A stretch of DNA of 35,022 nt from positions 1-35,022 of the forward strand of contig JAGABS010000018.1 of the NCBI GenBank assembly GCA_017614525.1, written 5' to 3'. The DNA is from Alphaproteobacteria bacterium (lineage in GTDB: Bacteria; Pseudomonadota; Alphaproteobacteria; UBA3830). Below, piece after piece: positions 2,981 to 10,662 of this stretch. The notes under the pieces are model-generated. The model searched no databases, was not told the origin of the DNA, and was given only the letters and a program-made list of their open reading frames with translations. Made by a program: the position numbers and the translations under genes. The first letter of the stretch is position 1, and every line of letters starts with the position of its first letter.

Positions 2981-3006
2981 GAAATAGAAGTTAGGAGATT
3001 AGCAAT
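2907..3006 (+). repeat. Imperfect 50-bp tandem direct repeat (2 copies)
   Basis: Unit 1 (2907-2956) and unit 2 (2957-3006) match at most positions. Each has a T-rich start, a TAAAAT hexamer, and the run TTAGGAGATTAGCAA. In unit 2 this run is the ribosome-binding site and runs into the ATG at 3005. In unit 1 the corresponding bases read AAA, so no start codon remains. This looks like a duplicated promoter plus leader. Confidence 0.85.
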
Positions 3007-3742
3007 GGATAAAACGGTAAAGGTCACTTTTATTGTTGGGTTATTTGTCTCTGTAGTGTTCTTATGGGGATTTAAGACCATAAGCAAAGCAATAAAGAGT
3101 ACCAGTCAACACATCAGTATTTCAACATCGGGTTCCGCTGAAAAGATAGTGAAGTCCGACATAGTTGAGGTCAAGATAGCGATTAAGAACAAGGATGAAG
3201 ATTTTTCGAAGCTGAACGAAAAGCGAATAGCTGATAAACAGCAGGTTTTGGATTTCTTAAGGACCTGCGGTTTGGATGAAAGAGATATAGTTTCGATAAA
3301 TATAAAGACTGAAAACAGAGGTGAAAGGCAAAATTCTTGGGGAGGGATAAAGATTTCCCACAAAGAGCAGGCTTTTGCGGCTGAAGATACCATTTTCATC
3401 CGAACCAAAAATTTTGAAAGCATAGATAACATGAAAAAACAGATTATGCAGTTGGCGTCCAAAGGTTTGATTATTTCATACGATTGTGTTTACAAAATCT
3501 TGGATTTGGAGAAAATAAAAGCCGAATTAATGAAGGAAGCGGCGAAGAACGCGGAAAGAGACGCGAATGTCTTGCTTTCTCCTTTTAACAAGAAAGTGAA
3601 AAAACTTCTCTCGATATATGGTTCATCTAGCCCGGATGTAATGGATGAGACGGCTGAACACAGTTGGCAGTCAAATAATGGAGAGAGCTCTTTGATGAAA
3701 AAGGTGAAACAAAAGGTCGCAGCAAGTTTTTCTTATGAATAA
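3005..3742 (+). CDS. SIMPL-domain (DUF541) membrane-anchored protein
   Basis: This 245-residue protein has one N-terminal membrane segment (about residues 7-25) followed by an exported SIMPL/DUF541 domain. The family is recognised by the order: conserved GSAEKIVKSDIVEVKIAI strand, a helix with the ERDIVSINIKTE segment, and the late AAKNAERDANVLL helix followed by a K-L-L-S-I strand. SIMPL proteins are periplasmic or surface proteins whose molecular function is mostly unknown; some have been linked to oxidative stress (BP26/YggE relatives). The start is fixed by AGGAG at 2993-2997. Two tandem CtrA-like promoters precede it and a terminator follows, so it is monocistronic. The C-terminus is lysine/serine-rich. 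Confidence 0.85.
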   Translation: MDKTVKVTFIVGLFVSVVFLWGFKTISKAIKSTSQHISISTSGSAEKIVKSDIVEVKIAIKNKDEDFSKLNEKRIADKQQVLDFLRTCGLDERDIVSINIKTENRGERQNSWGGIKISHKEQAFAAEDTIFIRTKNFESIDNMKKQIMQLASKGLIISYDCVYKILDLEKIKAELMKEAAKNAERDANVLLSPFNKKVKKLLSIYGSSSPDVMDETAEHSWQSNNGESSLMKKVKQKVAASFSYE

Positions 3743-3889: not shown

Positions 3890-5161
3890 CTATTTCGACG
3901 AGATGATCACGGTACAGCGAAATTTTGGTTGCTTAATCTTATTCAGAATTTGTTGATAAATTTCATCGTCGCAGTCCGAAAACGGCATAGACAAAAAATT
4001 TAAAGAGCTGTGTACGGAGCGCAGCGAATACATTTTGCGGTTTTGTTTTTCAACAAAGTAATTTTGAGATAATTCCAAGTTTTTCAGCTGTGACACATCC
4101 AACTCAGACAGGAAATCGTTAAGTTTTTTCACAAATCCGTTGCAGTCTTTTTGGTGAACAAACGACGATAGAATTAATACGGTAGAAAGTTCACGATCCT
4201 CAATTGTGTAAGAAAAATCCGTCGGACATTCATCGCTACGGAAATTCCCGTCGTCGCGATTAAACAGAGTGTCCGCAACAACTAAGAGTGTGGCTTTTTC
4301 TTGCTTTGAAAGATTATCCATGCGTATGCCGGTCATGACACCGCAAATGTCGCGTATATTGTTGTTTGAAATTTTTTCCTCGGAATTATCGACAGCTATA
4401 TTTTTCAGATCAGGAATTTTGCGTTGATTCGATTTTTTCGGCAGAAATTTTGAAAGTTCGTCGATCAGGATTTTCAATTTTTCCTTAGAATAGCTACCGG
4501 TATAATAAATTTTTAAATTATCCAATGCAAAATTATTTTTTATGAAAAGATTAATATCATTCAAAGTGATTGTTGAAATTGCCGATGAAGAACCCGTGGA
4601 GTTTTTTCCGTATATGTGGTTGGGATATAATTTTTGATAAAGCTTATCGAGCAAGATGTCATCAGGATGGGAGTTTTCCGAACTTATCTGGACAGGGAAA
4701 AACTCTTTTGAGAAGGTCAAATCATTTTCCGAAAATTTTTTATTTAACCCTGAAATCAAAAATTTCACAGCGGATTCAAATTGCTCCTCTATTATGCTGA
4801 ATGAAATTATAAAATCGTCGGTTGTTCCTCTCGTAAATAAGTTGGTGATACCCAACTGCTGAATTTTTTCTTCAGTTTCTTCCGCGGACAATTCTCCGAT
4901 TTTTCGGAACAAAAGTTTTGAGACCAGCGCCGATATCCCGTGTTTATCTTCCGAATTATGGAATACTCCTGCATTTTTAAATTTCAAAGTTAAATATATT
5001 TGGCGGCTGTTGGGTTCGTTAAAAATGGCTGTTTCGCAGGGAGTTTTTAGGTAAATCAGAGAGTGAGGCCGCCGAATTTTTTTGTCATAAATCCAGAAAG
5101 CAAAAAAAATCGTGAGAACGATAAATATTGTGGATAAAATTATGGGTAGAATCTTTTTCAT
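3890..5161 (-). CDS. M16-like protein 4, inactive, membrane-anchored
   Basis: This last gene of the M16 operon encodes 423 residues from the ATG at 5161. An upstream in-frame start at 5209 would overlap gene 3 by 47 bp and has no ribosome-binding site. From 5161 the protein opens with a classic anchor (MKKILPIILSTIFIVLTIFF), then the M16 fold. The motif position that should read HxxEH is replaced by HGISALVSKLL, so zinc binding and peptidase activity are not expected. The C-terminal half keeps M16-like strand and helix order but weak similarity. M16 enzymes often work as active/inactive pairs, as with MPP alpha and beta. A structural or substrate-presenting role is inferred. The family call rests mainly on position and the N-terminal pattern. 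Confidence 0.7.
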   Translation of the reverse strand: MKKILPIILSTIFIVLTIFFAFWIYDKKIRRPHSLIYLKTPCETAIFNEPNSRQIYLTLKFKNAGVFHNSEDKHGISALVSKLLFRKIGELSAEETEEKIQQLGITNLFTRGTTDDFIISFSIIEEQFESAVKFLISGLNKKFSENDLTFSKEFFPVQISSENSHPDDILLDKLYQKLYPNHIYGKNSTGSSSAISTITLNDINLFIKNNFALDNLKIYYTGSYSKEKLKILIDELSKFLPKKSNQRKIPDLKNIAVDNSEEKISNNNIRDICGVMTGIRMDNLSKQEKATLLVVADTLFNRDDGNFRSDECPTDFSYTIEDRELSTVLILSSFVHQKDCNGFVKKLNDFLSELDVSQLKNLELSQNYFVEKQNRKMYSLRSVHSSLNFLSMPFSDCDDEIYQQILNKIKQPKFRCTVIISSK

Positions 5162-5162
5162 A

Positions 5163-6365
5163 CTAATTTTCTGCCTTATGTTGTGTAGATATTTTAGCAA
5201 CGAAACCATTTTCCAAAACTTGCTCGACGAAGTTTTTTATGTCGCTCGATGACGTTTTTAAGATTTCATCGGAAACATTTTTTTTGATTTGGGAATGTAA
5301 AATATATTGATTTCTGATCATTCGGTATTTTGCGTTGAGGTCTTCATCGATATCGATTTCTGAAAATTTTTCAAGTTTTGATATCAATTCTGATTTTTCT
5401 CGAGAGAGTTTTGTTTTTTTGAGACGAGAAAAAAGATTTTTAAGGTCAAACTCGAAAGATTTTTTTGATGTATCTCCTTTCAGCCTAAATCCTAACATAA
5501 ATAAATTTGGTTTCATCAAGTCTGTTATGAAAAAATCATCAATCAATTGCGAATATTTTTTGAGATAATTAAAGATCTCATGACTTAATATCGAAAAAAT
5601 AGCGTCTCGTTTTTCTGTAAGCTCGAGGGGGACTATTTGATATATATAGCGCAAGGAACGCCCGAAAAATTTACTTCTTGACTCGACAGTCCGTTTCGGA
5701 AAATCGTAGGTTGCGCATGTGTCTGTATTGGTGCCGGCATAAGATGATGGTTCCAAATGAAGATTCTCGATTAGTCGTTTTGTATCGGATTTTCCGCAGA
5801 TAATAATTATGTCCATGCGAGCTTTGCTATACTTATCCAGGGAATTTTTCAGGTCATTCTCACTAATATCATCCAAAATTGATTCGTTGAAAATATACCG
5901 GGGATTTATTACTGCATAAATCTCTTTGCCGATGAGATTTGTCTCAAAATAGTCGGACAGCTTGTGCTTGATTTTTATTTGATTTTTTATCAATTGCAGA
6001 TTTTTTGTATCGGGCTTGTTCTCCAGCATAATTTTAGCGATATCCGAAATTTGTTTGCTCGATACGATTGCGCAGACTTCGGAAAATTTATCATGTACGC
6101 TGAAATTAATATCAGTTCCCAATTTTTTTGCGGATTTTTTCGAAGCTTTGCTTAAGAAGGTTTTTTCAATCATTTCTGCTTCACAAATATTTTTTAGTTG
6201 ATTCAATCCGACAGAGTAAACTACTCCGACCTTAGCAACTGGGAGGAAAAAATCATCGCAGATAATTACTCGTATATTGTTTAGTTTATATTCCTGAATT
6301 GTAGCTGATATTTCCTGAAAACAGAAAAGCAGAGAACTCAGCAACGAAAGCAATAAAATTTTCAT
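5163..6365 (-). CDS. M16-like protein 3, inactive, exported
   Basis: This protein has 400 residues. A signal peptide (MKILLLSLLSSLLFCF...) is followed by a divergent M16 domain. Where the zinc motif should lie it has EAEMIEKTFL, without the HxxEH histidines, so it should be catalytically dead. Its start ATG at 6365 overlaps the stop of gene 2 in an ATGA arrangement and has a strong AGGAGG six bases upstream, so it is translationally coupled. Its stop (5163-5165) lies directly before the start of gene 4. It is the most diverged of the four, and the M16 call is supported largely by operon context and secondary-structure pattern. Confidence 0.68.
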   Translation of the reverse strand: MKILLLSLLSSLLFCFQEISATIQEYKLNNIRVIICDDFFLPVAKVGVVYSVGLNQLKNICEAEMIEKTFLSKASKKSAKKLGTDINFSVHDKFSEVCAIVSSKQISDIAKIMLENKPDTKNLQLIKNQIKIKHKLSDYFETNLIGKEIYAVINPRYIFNESILDDISENDLKNSLDKYSKARMDIIIICGKSDTKRLIENLHLEPSSYAGTNTDTCATYDFPKRTVESRSKFFGRSLRYIYQIVPLELTEKRDAIFSILSHEIFNYLKKYSQLIDDFFITDLMKPNLFMLGFRLKGDTSKKSFEFDLKNLFSRLKKTKLSREKSELISKLEKFSEIDIDEDLNAKYRMIRNQYILHSQIKKNVSDEILKTSSSDIKNFVEQVLENGFVAKISTQHKAEN

Positions 6366-7657
6366 TCGTTTCCTCCTATAACGATGAAGGGAATATTTTT
6401 TTCATCCAAAGTTTTTTGCGCAAGTGAGTTTACCTGCTCCAAGGTGACCGCATTTATTCCTTCCAAAAATTCTTCTAATGCTTTTGTGGAATATCCCTGC
6501 AGTTTTTTCGTCATATAGAAGTGACATAGATCCTCCGACGTCCTCAAATTTACCAGAAACGTTCCCTTGATATTGCTTTTTGCAAAATCTAATTCTTCTT
6601 GGGAAATACCATCTTCTTTTAATTTTTTTAAAATGAGCTTTATTTCGGAGATTGCGATATCCGTTTTTTTGTTTGAAGTTTGTAAAACACCGGCTGAAAA
6701 ACAAGAGTGTCTATGTTCAATTTTATTAATACCTCCACTGTAAATCAGTCCGAGTTTTGATCGAAGTTTTTCCATGATTTTGCTTTTGAAATGTCCTCCA
6801 CCCAAAATTCGGTACAGAATGGCAGTAGCGAATTTTTGTTCTGAGTTTTCCAAAACGTTCGGTAAAGTGAAAAGCACGTAGCTTTGCGGTCTTTCAATAT
6901 GATATTTTTCGTTAAAATTTTTTAATGAAGGTTCAACGTTTGGAATATTATCTTGCACTTTTTTTCCTTTCGGAATAGAAGATAAAATTTGATCCGCCAG
7001 TTTTACGGCCTCCGTTTCCGAAATATCTCCGAATATACAAAGCTCGATATTGCTGCACACAATGTATTTTTTATGGAATGCTTTTAAATCATTTCTGTTT
7101 AGCTTTAAGACTTCTTCGGAATTGCCAAAACCGTCTCCATACGGATGATTTTTAAATAAAACTCTTGGCATCATAACATACGCGTACCAAAAAACGGGGG
7201 AATCTTGATAATTTCTTAACCGATAGGATATGTAAAATTTATTTTCCTCGACTTCTTTTTTTTCGAATTTCGGAGAATTTAAAGCAAGAAGTAATAAGTT
7301 TATTGCTTCATCTGAAACGACTTTGGGATATTTACAAAAAAACATTACATCATCGAAGTTATCGCCACAGTAGAGTTTTACGGAAATATTCTGAAGTTTT
7401 TCTTGAAATTCTTCTTTGGAATATTTTCCGCTGCCACAAAGTGCCGTACTCGTGTATAGGTAGGGAACTGATCTTTTGGTCGGGCTCATGTGCGCCGCAC
7501 CACAATTTCGAAAAGCAACGGCAATATTAATTAACGGAGTACTGTCATCTTGATGATACCAAAATTTTACTCCGTATGAGCTGGTTAATTCTTTTACTTC
7601 CGCCGACGAAATTGCCGATACCAAAAGCGAAATTATACACAAAATTTTTTTAATCAC
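6362..7657 (-). CDS. M16 family protein 2, zinc site lost, exported
   Basis: This protein has 431 residues: a signal peptide (MIKKILCIISLLVSAISSA) and two M16 half-domains. The first half has the normal pattern (KFWYHQDDSTPLINIAVAFRNCGA), but the HxxEH position reads PYLYT. The second half keeps the family's substrate-side Arg...Tyr pair in EKLRSKLGLIYSGG. This is the pattern of the non-catalytic partner in heterodimeric bacterial M16B proteases and mitochondrial MPP alpha. The start is GTG at 7657 with AAAGGA seven bases upstream, and it overlaps gene 1 by 8 bp. It is the likely direct partner of gene 1. Confidence 0.9.
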   Translation of the reverse strand: MIKKILCIISLLVSAISSAEVKELTSSYGVKFWYHQDDSTPLINIAVAFRNCGAAHMSPTKRSVPYLYTSTALCGSGKYSKEEFQEKLQNISVKLYCGDNFDDVMFFCKYPKVVSDEAINLLLLALNSPKFEKKEVEENKFYISYRLRNYQDSPVFWYAYVMMPRVLFKNHPYGDGFGNSEEVLKLNRNDLKAFHKKYIVCSNIELCIFGDISETEAVKLADQILSSIPKGKKVQDNIPNVEPSLKNFNEKYHIERPQSYVLFTLPNVLENSEQKFATAILYRILGGGHFKSKIMEKLRSKLGLIYSGGINKIEHRHSCFSAGVLQTSNKKTDIAISEIKLILKKLKEDGISQEELDFAKSNIKGTFLVNLRTSEDLCHFYMTKKLQGYSTKALEEFLEGINAVTLEQVNSLAQKTLDEKNIPFIVIGGNE

Positions 7658-8957
7658 GATCGTATCCTTTCGGCAAAGTTTTCATAACAGATATCGGGGA
7701 TGTAGAGAAGACTTCTTTCAGTACGTCATTGCACTCCTTTGCGGTTATCGATTGGATCATACTATCCAGGGATAAAATTTCTTTCACAGACAGTCCCGAT
7801 ATCAGATGCCATCCAAAATAATTGGAAATTTGTTCTACATCCTCTTTTTCATATGCCAACGAGATACGTTCCTTTCTTTTTATCCTTTGTAATTCAGTTT
7901 CATTGATGCATCCATCCATTATTTTTTTTCTAAAATATTGCCAGTTGTCGTTTGCTTTATCTGGGTTATCAATTTCATTCGTATAGAAAACAAAATCTAA
8001 AATGTCGTATTCATAAACTAATTTCGTATATGAAAAACTTATACCTGAAACAGTATTTGTCATCTGTTTTAGTATGATATTTATGAAAGACGACGGCTGT
8101 TCCAAAATTTCCAGAGCCAAAGATAACGCTATAGACTTTCTCAAGTTATCTTTAGCTAGAAACGGCACTTTATGAGTATATTTTATTTTTGATATCGAAC
8201 CGTTTTCTGCAGATTTGCATTCTATGGATTTTTTACTCAAAGCACTTCCTTTGAGAGAACGATTTTCGGGTAGTTTTACTGGAGGAATATTCTCAAAGTA
8301 TTTTTTTATCAATCTTTCTGCCTCTGGTTTTTCAAAATCTCCAACCAAAATTATCGTGGCATTGTTTGGAACGATCCATGTTCTATAGAAGGCTTTCAGA
8401 TCTTCGATTTCTATGGATTCTATCTCATGCTTCCATCCGATTACTTCAATACCCCCTGTCTGTCTGTTAAAAATATTTGATAAAAACACTTCATAATATT
8501 TTCCCAAATTACTAGAATCTACCCTCATTCCTCTTTCTTCTGAAATAGCTTTCTTTTCGTTTTGAAAAACTTTGTCTTCGATTTCTAAACTTTTCATTCG
8601 TTCAGATTCAAAAGATAAAACTTTTTCAAAACAGTACTTCGGAAAAATTTCGTAAAAACAAATGGTATTAACAGATGTAAAAGCGTTTTTTTCGGCGCCG
8701 ATTTTATCCAAGTAATTACAGAACTCCCTCTTGTGATTTAAAAACGCAAGATGTTCAAGAAAATGCGCGACTCCAGACTTAGAGAGCATGTCGCATTTTG
8801 AGCCGCATTTGTACCAAACAGAAAGTGAAATAACCGGTGCAGATTTTCTTTCTACCATTATTACTTTCATTCCGTTTTTAAGAGAAAACTCATCTACTTT
8901 GAAATTTGCATTTGCAGTGAATATCGAAAAAAATAAAAAAAGTAACAATTTTTTCAA
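7650..8957 (-). CDS. M16 family zinc metallopeptidase 1 (active), exported
   Basis: This is the first gene of the M16 operon and the only one with a full active site. HFLEH supplies two His ligands and the catalytic Glu, and KKAISEERGMR about 70 residues later supplies the third ligand. M16B enzymes are zinc endopeptidases that degrade or process peptides, here in the periplasm. The start is uncertain. GTG at 8987 gives 445 residues but would sit at the predicted transcription start. TTG at 8957 has AGGA upstream and yields a clean signal peptide (LKKLLLFLFFSIFTANA), so 8957 is preferred (435 residues; HFLEH then at 65-69). Genes 2-4 follow with overlaps. Confidence 0.92.
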   Translation of the reverse strand: MKKLLLFLFFSIFTANANFKVDEFSLKNGMKVIMVERKSAPVISLSVWYKCGSKCDMLSKSGVAHFLEHLAFLNHKREFCNYLDKIGAEKNAFTSVNTICFYEIFPKYCFEKVLSFESERMKSLEIEDKVFQNEKKAISEERGMRVDSSNLGKYYEVFLSNIFNRQTGGIEVIGWKHEIESIEIEDLKAFYRTWIVPNNATIILVGDFEKPEAERLIKKYFENIPPVKLPENRSLKGSALSKKSIECKSAENGSISKIKYTHKVPFLAKDNLRKSIALSLALEILEQPSSFINIILKQMTNTVSGISFSYTKLVYEYDILDFVFYTNEIDNPDKANDNWQYFRKKIMDGCINETELQRIKRKERISLAYEKEDVEQISNYFGWHLISGLSVKEILSLDSMIQSITAKECNDVLKEVFSTSPISVMKTLPKGYDRD

Positions 8958-8992
8958 AATTTTCCTCAAAAACTTTTGATCGCACACCCCTC

Positions 8993-9022: not shown

Positions 9023-9117
9023 TAGATTCTGTTGAAAGGTGGAGGAGGGGGCGGTCTTGTATAAATGATTCATATATGGTACTGGAGAGAGTAAGTTATT
9101 AGATGTGTTGGTGGAAA

Positions 9118-10662
9118 ATGAGTTTAGTTAAAACTGTTGCTACGGTCGGTGGGTGGACGTTAGTATACCGATTGAGTAGTTTTGCGCGGGATATTCTTCA
9201 GGCAAGATGCCTAGGGGCCGGGATGTTTGGGGATGTGTTTGCGTGTGCTTTTAAATTTGCAAACGTACTGAGAAAGATATTCGCCGAAGGGGCGTTCAAT
9301 GCGTCGTTTCTGCCGATTTTTTCCAACACACTGAAGGATAAAGGTGAAGAAGAAGCAAGGAAGTTAGCTTCGCAGACATTCACGTGGTTGATGTTGTTTG
9401 TTTCGTTTCTTATGATTTTGTGTTTGATCTTTTTCCGAGAAATTATGTCAGTTTATGGTAGAGGGTTTGAGCCAGGAAGCGAGGGAAGCGAGCATCTGAT
9501 TGTTGTCGGTCGTATTTGTTCTTCATATATTGGTGCGTCGTTTTTAGTCGCGCTGTTCGGAGGTATTTTAAACACGCTCAATCGTTTTGCCATGCCGGCT
9601 GCTGTTCAGGTTGTATTGAATTTGTCGGTGATAGTTGCCCTTTTTGTAGGACCTCTTCGGTTTCCGAGTGTTGCATACACTATGGCATGGGCGACATTTT
9701 TTGCTGGATTCGTTCAGCTTGTGATTTTGTGGTTGAACGTTCGTTACTGCGGAATGAAAGTTTGGTTTGATTTTTCTCCGATGATGGAGGGAGTGAAAGT
9801 ATTTTTCAAAAAATTGGTTTCCGGAGCGATTGGAGCCGGAGTTTGGCAGTTGAATGTCGTGATTGATTTTTCCGTTCTTACTTTATTGCCGACGGGGTCT
9901 GCTACTTACTTCTATTTGACGGACCACGTGAATCAATTCCCGATAGGAATTTTGGGAATCGCTTTCAGTACGGCGTTGCTTCCTCCTTTAACCAGGGCTA
10001 TCCATGCAAATGATAAAGAAGGCGCTCAAAAACAAATGGGACTGGGATTGCTTTTTGCTTTTCTGTTCACTTTGCCAGCGGCGGTGATTTTGATACTTTT
10101 GAGTGAGCCGATAACGGGTGCGATTTACGGACACGGTAAGTTTACGGCCGAACATGTAGCGGCAGCAGCTCCGGCGCTGACGGCTTTCGCCTTTGGACTT
10201 CCGTCTTACATGATGACAAAGGTTTTTTCGACGACGTTTTTCGCTCATAAGGATACCAGGACACCGTTGATTGGCGGAATGATTTCTATTATTTCCAACT
10301 TATTGTTTATCTTGGTGTTGGTACCTTACATGAAGCACGTTGGCGTGGCTTTGGCGACTTCATTATCTGCGTGGTGTAACGGGTTGTATTTGATATTCAA
10401 GCTGAAAAGTTTGGAGACGGTAAAAATTGAAAAGTCCGTAGTTTTAGAGTGCGCAAAACAGCTTATAGTTTCCGCCGTGATGCTATGTTCCATATACGGA
10501 ATGAATACTTTTGCGAAATCCTATTATATCCAAGGCGGGGAGCCGAGAAATTTGGCGGTGATTTGCGTTGTCAGTGCAAGTATTGGTGTGTTCTTTGTGG
10601 TCGGCAAAATTTTCGGAATCTTTAAGTTCCTCGATGACGTTAAAACGCTAAAAGAGGATTGA
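9118..10662 (+). CDS. murJ: Lipid II flippase MurJ (MviN)
   Basis: MurJ flips lipid-linked peptidoglycan precursor across the inner membrane. About 514 residues with roughly 14 hydrophobic segments match the family. The N-terminus shows the family signature: TVATVGGWTLVYRLSSFARD, then DVFACAFKFANVLRKIFAEG and AFNASFLPIF. The ATG at 9118 (MSLVKTVATV) aligns with typical MurJ starts and has GGTGG just upstream. An ATG at 9103 would add five residues, and GGAGAG lies 11 nt before that one. It is divergent from the M16 operon and only 3 bp from the next gene. Presence of MurJ implies that peptidoglycan synthesis is retained. Confidence 0.96.
   Translation: MSLVKTVATVGGWTLVYRLSSFARDILQARCLGAGMFGDVFACAFKFANVLRKIFAEGAFNASFLPIFSNTLKDKGEEEARKLASQTFTWLMLFVSFLMILCLIFFREIMSVYGRGFEPGSEGSEHLIVVGRICSSYIGASFLVALFGGILNTLNRFAMPAAVQVVLNLSVIVALFVGPLRFPSVAYTMAWATFFAGFVQLVILWLNVRYCGMKVWFDFSPMMEGVKVFFKKLVSGAIGAGVWQLNVVIDFSVLTLLPTGSATYFYLTDHVNQFPIGILGIAFSTALLPPLTRAIHANDKEGAQKQMGLGLLFAFLFTLPAAVILILLSEPITGAIYGHGKFTAEHVAAAAPALTAFAFGLPSYMMTKVFSTTFFAHKDTRTPLIGGMISIISNLLFILVLVPYMKHVGVALATSLSAWCNGLYLIFKLKSLETVKIEKSVVLECAKQLIVSAVMLCSIYGMNTFAKSYYIQGGEPRNLAVICVVSASIGVFFVVGKIFGIFKFLDDVKTLKED

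Follow-up and report, generated by a model that had tools for sequence, protein, structure and literature searches.

How does a symbiont-like bacterium from a lineage with genomes of about 1 Mb come to keep four M16-type genes in one operon, when only one of them encodes the zinc-binding motif of an active peptidase? This question is raised by the window analyzed here, i.e., a stretch of 35,022 nucleotides from an alphaproteobacterium (assembly GCA_017614525.1, contig JAGABS010000018.1), which is contig C9 of an 88-contig, 1.04-Mb assembly with a completeness of 81%. On its minus strand, which carries all window features described below unless marked otherwise, four abutting open reading frames (ORFs), p1 to p4, together cover positions 3890-8987 and encode M16-fold proteins. 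The answer we favor, with a probability of about 0.5 for the explanation as a whole, is a duplicated M16B pair, in which p1/p2 would be the live peptidase and the selected, catalytically dead p3/p4 would capture or position its substrates or regulate it.

The two promoter-proximal genes have the features of an active enzyme. p1 (7650..8987) is the predicted catalytic subunit and comprises 445 aa when read from a GTG start; alternative TTG starts lie at 8969 and at 8957, the latter having been used in the original prediction, which was made from the sequence of the window. p2 (6362..7657) encodes an HxxEH-less partner subunit of 431 aa. Both are separately encoded M16 proteins of about 50 kDa with a two-domain match in Pfam (PF00675/PF05193: E 4e-15/7.7e-17 for p1 and 6e-6/1.2e-26 for p2). 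In profile searches of PDB sequences, p1 was matched over its full length by 4nnz (3e-56) and by 3amj_C, annotated as “zinc peptidase active subunit” (1.1e-55), and p2, likewise over its full length, by 3gwb (5.6e-29) and by 3amj_B, the “zinc peptidase inactive subunit” (2.4e-28). The zinc-binding motif HFLEH of p1 (8751..8765) is conserved, reading HFLEH or HYLEH in each of the 32 relatives that cover the site, and a downstream Glu-Glu (8535..8540; invariant columns E150/E151), which contains the candidate third zinc ligand, is present in 33/33 covered sequences. At the HxxEH position, p2 reads YLYTS (7448..7462), and none of its 34 relatives has HxxEH in the alignment. All 34 retain, however, an Arg and a Tyr in an LR...GLIY-type motif (R299...Y306 of p2, 6740..6763), an R/Y pair that p1 does not have at the matching place. 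In M16B heterodimers, this pair completes the active site (PMC12731061). By these matches and motifs, p1/p2 corresponds to the ordinary M16B heterodimers of bacteria, with p2 as the normal and required HxxEH-less partner; motif conservation strongly implies catalytic competence, and p1 presumably pairs with p2. An assignment of p1 to the MPP/RPP group was rejected, as the MPP-like gene of the same genome is separate from p1-p4 in trees.

The original prediction had described one live and three dead active sites. It was right that HFLEH and the downstream Glu occur only in p1, and the motifs it quoted for the other three proteins (PYLYT, EAEMIEKTFL and HGISALVSKLL) lie within one or two residues of the aligned segments YLYTS, EMIEK and ALVSK. 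Since p2 carries the R/Y pair of a standard partner, it was rejected as a surprising dead member, and “one live pair and one dead pair” replaces “three dead”, with only p3 and p4 being surplus.

The M16 nature of this surplus pair becomes apparent at the level of families and structural models. For p3 (5163..6365, 400 aa), a doubly degenerate p1-side paralogue, the single sequence gave no Pfam match and phmmer found nothing in the PDB. The p3 family profile, in contrast, is related to the p1 family with E 5.5e-16 and to the p2 family with 1.4e-5 in hhalign, and a family hidden Markov model (HMM) reaches M16 proteins among PDB sequences (E 2.4e-8). The AlphaFold2 (AF2) model of p3 (predicted local distance difference test score, pLDDT, 79; predicted template modeling score, pTM, 0.58) has the M16B subunit 3ami_A as its top PDB fold match over the full length (Foldseek E 3.9e-18; TM-score 0.73/0.70). 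p4 (3890..5161, 423 aa), a degenerate p2-side paralogue, is borderline in Pfam (1.4e-4/2.7e-4 for PF00675/PF05193). In hhalign, the p4 family lies closest to the p2 family (E 2.2e-20, compared to 2.6e-7 for p1), and its AF2 model (pLDDT 82, pTM 0.70) matches many M16 chains, including the inactive subunit 3amj_B over the full length (TM-score 0.77/0.78, root-mean-square deviation 3.6). Judged by their family profiles and models, both p3 and p4 are M16-fold proteins with two domains over their full length.

The zinc site HxxEH...E of active M16 peptidases is absent from both, with 0/35 p3 and 0/31 p4 sequences containing HxxEH; in the alignments, EMIEK (6162..6176) takes its place in p3 and ALVSK (4916..4930) in p4. 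The R/Y pair of p4 has also degenerated, with a shortened R...Y loop in several termite-gut relatives and loss of the Arg in the genus of the window. The N termini of p1, p2 and p3 resemble signal peptides, that of p1 ending TANA|NF, which points to export of these three proteins. p4 instead starts with a hydrophobic helix without evident cleavage site (5090..5152; helix 5-30 of the model), a probable membrane anchor, and a hydrophobic N-terminal segment is found in 30/30 p4 sequences covering this region, in line with the membrane anchoring proposed for the last protein.

Both surplus genes are retained under purifying selection. Among rumen relatives, the ratio of nonsynonymous to synonymous substitution rates (dN/dS, Nei-Gojobori) ranges from 0.15 to 0.24 in p3 and from 0.08 to 0.15 in p4, compared to 0.11-0.17 in p1 and 0.09-0.21 in p2. 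About 35 p3 and 31 p4 genes from at least four genera have open frames, and invariant residues persist in both. The order p1-p2-p3-p4 recurs in metagenome-assembled genomes (MAGs) titled Holosporaceae, from rumen and termite gut according to the isolate names and the MAG series to which they belong. Within one GTDB family, the cluster is found whole or in part in about 35 of 41 genomes and p4 in 31, and p3 follows p1p2 wherever the contig continues. As all genomes of close relatives are MAGs, absences may reflect incompleteness; in the genus of the window, neither p2 nor p4 is present in 4/9 genomes, of which two are 96-97% complete, and members without p1p2 are also without p4. Thus, p3 and p4 have M16 folds, HxxEH is intact in none of the p3 and p4 relatives examined and the four-gene order is conserved in close relatives, the opposite in each case of what the original prediction had named as evidence against itself. 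In f2, f3 and f4, further families of the order, as well as at all wider alphaproteobacterial loci examined, there is a pair only. In a genome from another family of the order (G031), a short contig (L122) carries a second M16 pair whose frames are broken and whose listed ORF translations contain no intact HxxEH; it is possibly a decaying or mis-assembled duplicate.

The four genes are tightly coupled, as had been described for these overlapping minus-strand genes of exported M16-type proteins: p1 and p2 overlap by 8 bp, p2 and p3 share an ATGA junction (4-bp overlap), and the ATG of p4 lies one base past the p3 stop, the ATG at 5209 of the ORF list being an in-frame upstream codon within p3. 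Across the family, the junctions in the order p1p2p3(p4) overlap or leave 1-2 bp. The fixed stoichiometry that had been derived from this coupling is weakened by relatives in which p4 is absent or relocated (G011, G015, G021, L015 and G010).

Apart from the operon, the genome contains two more M16 genes outside the window. One is an active, MPP-like gene with HFLEH (G000:C28:2564-3835, L129), which forms its own clade in trees. The other, p5 (G000:C71:3752-5074, i.e., L200:3752-5074 on the minus strand; also L177:4097-5416 and L124:4830-6167), encodes a presumably exported, dead p1-type protein which has lost HxxEH in 32/32 sequences examined and is closer to p1 (hhalign 3.9e-25) than to p2 (3.3e-14). 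p5 is nearly universal in the GTDB family, in the order ileS-lspA-p5-pgi-dapF-rlmN, where pgi was identified by Pfam and dapF and rlmN are presumed from the appearance of their sequences. In other alphaproteobacteria, lspA and pgi flank an M16 pair (ileS-lspA-M16-M16-pgi-mutL). Because p5 fills this site, a dead gene has been retained at the ancestral position, with the live pair and p3/p4 located elsewhere. The genomes of this lineage retain five or six M16 genes at a size of about 1 Mb, and for this reason the M16 system probably matters for host-associated life.

Where do p3 and p4 come from, and with whom do they act? From their sequences, they look like a second copy of a p1/p2-type pair that has lost the zinc site from both members. 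Trees unite p4 with the p2-type proteins, whereas p3 falls on the side of the p1 type (Shimodaira-Hasegawa-like approximate likelihood ratio test, SH-aLRT, 95-99 and 94-95, respectively). In approximately unbiased (AU) tests, which involve long branches, a p1+p4 grouping was rejected (p 0.007), while p1+p3 (p 0.463) and p2+p4, for which the constrained tree was even slightly better, were not. Early iterated HMMs of p3 and p4 pulled in every M16 family, and the classification therefore relies on profiles from A1-A4. Several observations weigh against the explanation that we prefer. A p2+p3 grouping was disfavored by the AU test without being rejected (p 0.146), the p3 branch is very long, and p3 is about as near to p5 (4.2e-17 in hhalign) as to p1; it may descend from either of these or from an older branch. 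Moreover, p4 does not follow p3 in G011, G015, G021 and L015, in G010 it stands alone on another contig (L160:4954-6333) apart from the p1p2p3 cluster (L013), and the charges beside the p4 helix do not discriminate between topologies, with p4 presumably oriented so that the protein lies outside the cytoplasmic membrane. Due to the long p3 branch and its equal proximity to p5 and p1, a single duplication of the pair is likely, but not proven. The same proteins could also have arisen stepwise, by duplications of single genes or from an older M16 copy; p3, for example, could descend from the p5 line that occupies the ancestral locus. This history, which the position of p3 outside p1+a1 in trees would also fit, is a real contender, albeit on the less probable side, as the quartet shows the p1-type/p2-type order of a single pair twice in succession and a p1+p3 clade was compatible with the data.

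Under the duplicated-pair explanation, p1 with its zinc site and p2 with its R/Y pair would form an active endopeptidase of the clam-shell type that works outside the cytoplasmic membrane. p3 on the p1 side and p4 on the p2 side would derive from the copied pair, having lost the zinc site and, in the genus of the window, also the Arg of the R/Y pair, and would persist as a catalytically dead clam-shell or as a pair of pseudo-subunits, with the N-terminal helix of p4 holding all of them at the inner membrane. Most likely, the dead pair would then capture or position peptide substrates for p1/p2, or regulate p1/p2 via docking or subunit exchange. This explanation is grounded in homology, fold, lost motifs, retained selection and conserved gene order, to which it adds, by inference, export and topology, the pairing into heterodimers, a contact between the two pairs and a purpose for the dead one. 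A larger periplasmic assembly, as the original prediction had envisaged, could result; its most elaborate form, a four-chain, membrane-tethered exported machine with p3/p4 as dedicated substrate receptor or gate for p1/p2 and p5 as a possible further part, appears doubtful to us.

Since p4 can be missing or relocated while p1p2p3 is kept, p3 does not strictly require an adjacent p4, and its partner may instead be p1 or p2. Consistently, p3 and p4 could swap into the p1/p2 clam-shell (p3:p2 and p4:p1), each filling the half that corresponds to its p1- or p2-type sequence, and yield inactive or retargeted regulatory heterodimers without any separate p3/p4 dimer. We consider this unlikely, given that p4 has a membrane anchor which p2 does not have, and that the extreme divergence of p3 and p4 from p1/p2, with branches of about two changes per site, includes the regions of the would-be shared interface. 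Alternatively, p3/p4 might be a non-proteolytic scaffold of another membrane complex, comparable to core proteins 1 and 2 of the bc1 complex, and be merely co-transcribed with p1/p2. The core proteins are a precedent for M16 pairs without both HxxEH and R/Y (PMC12731061). They are also among the fold matches of the p3 and p4 models, and the predicted anchor of p4 would suit such a role. The neighbors of the M16 cluster vary, however, between genera: no gene was found to be consistently linked across them, synteny being limited to the genus level (the rumen genus shares mutS and H+-pyrophosphatase, and some termite-gut relatives have an upstream ORF in common), and no recurring respiratory gene was seen in this neighbor survey, whereas p3/p4 stay coupled to the active pair. 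As p1-p3 furthermore look exported, unlike the core proteins, which lie on the matrix side, a scaffold role is quite unlikely. That p3/p4 are functionless duplicates decaying in a reduced genome is very improbable and largely refuted: p3 diverges rapidly between genera, with only 18-26% identity to its termite orthologues, and p4 is lost in some relatives, but genomes of 1 Mb normally shed dead genes, and the dN/dS values far below 1, resembling those of p1/p2, as well as the conserved open frames and invariant residues led us to reject a degenerate-pseudogene reading. The dead pair maintained in this way beside p1/p2 suggests a structural, capturing or regulating role.

In the window, the operon is flanked by a gene for a SIMPL/DUF541 domain protein with a hydrophobic N terminus (3005-3742, plus strand), located between mutS and the M16 operon, and by a divergent gene for the lipid II flippase MurJ (9103-10662, plus strand).

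Among known systems, SPH2681/SPH2682 of Sphingomonas sp. A1 (PDB 3ami, 3amj) is similar in that the zinc motif and the R/Y pair reside on separate subunits, and p1/p2 match its active and inactive chains over their full length. It consists, however, of a single pair, whereas a second, fully non-catalytic pair adjoins here. Further two-gene bacterial M16B heterodimers are PA0371-PA0372 of Pseudomonas (4nnz), TTHA1264/1265 of Thermus (7v4y), AlbE/AlbF and YmfF/YmfH (PMC12731061), and two-gene bacterial systems are also found among the fold matches of the p3/p4 models. The alphaproteobacterial pairs at ileS-lspA-M16-M16-pgi-mutL (e.g., L019-L028) are direct homologues of p1/p2 with HxxEH only in the first gene, but comprise two genes only; in the family of the window, the dead p5 stands at this site and the active pair is found elsewhere, together with p3/p4. 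In the open-licence PMC literature searched, we found no description of a four-gene M16B version with a dead second pair. Dead halves alone were already known, but no operon keeping a whole dead M16 pair under selection beside a live one was found in that literature. The analysis also newly recognized p5, a further dead protein of the p1 type, which occupies the ancestral site across the family. The mitochondrial processing peptidase and the bc1 core proteins 1 and 2 differ from the operon in being mitochondrial, on the matrix side and not encoded in an operon beside an active sister pair. They are nevertheless similar as M16 pairs that have given up catalysis in part or entirely, with one role having become structural (PMC12731061, PMC9291397). 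If the two pairs described here touch each other, they would provide a tractable system for asking about the role of pseudo-peptidases, and a bacterial parallel to the mitochondrial M16 proteases that turned into structural core proteins.

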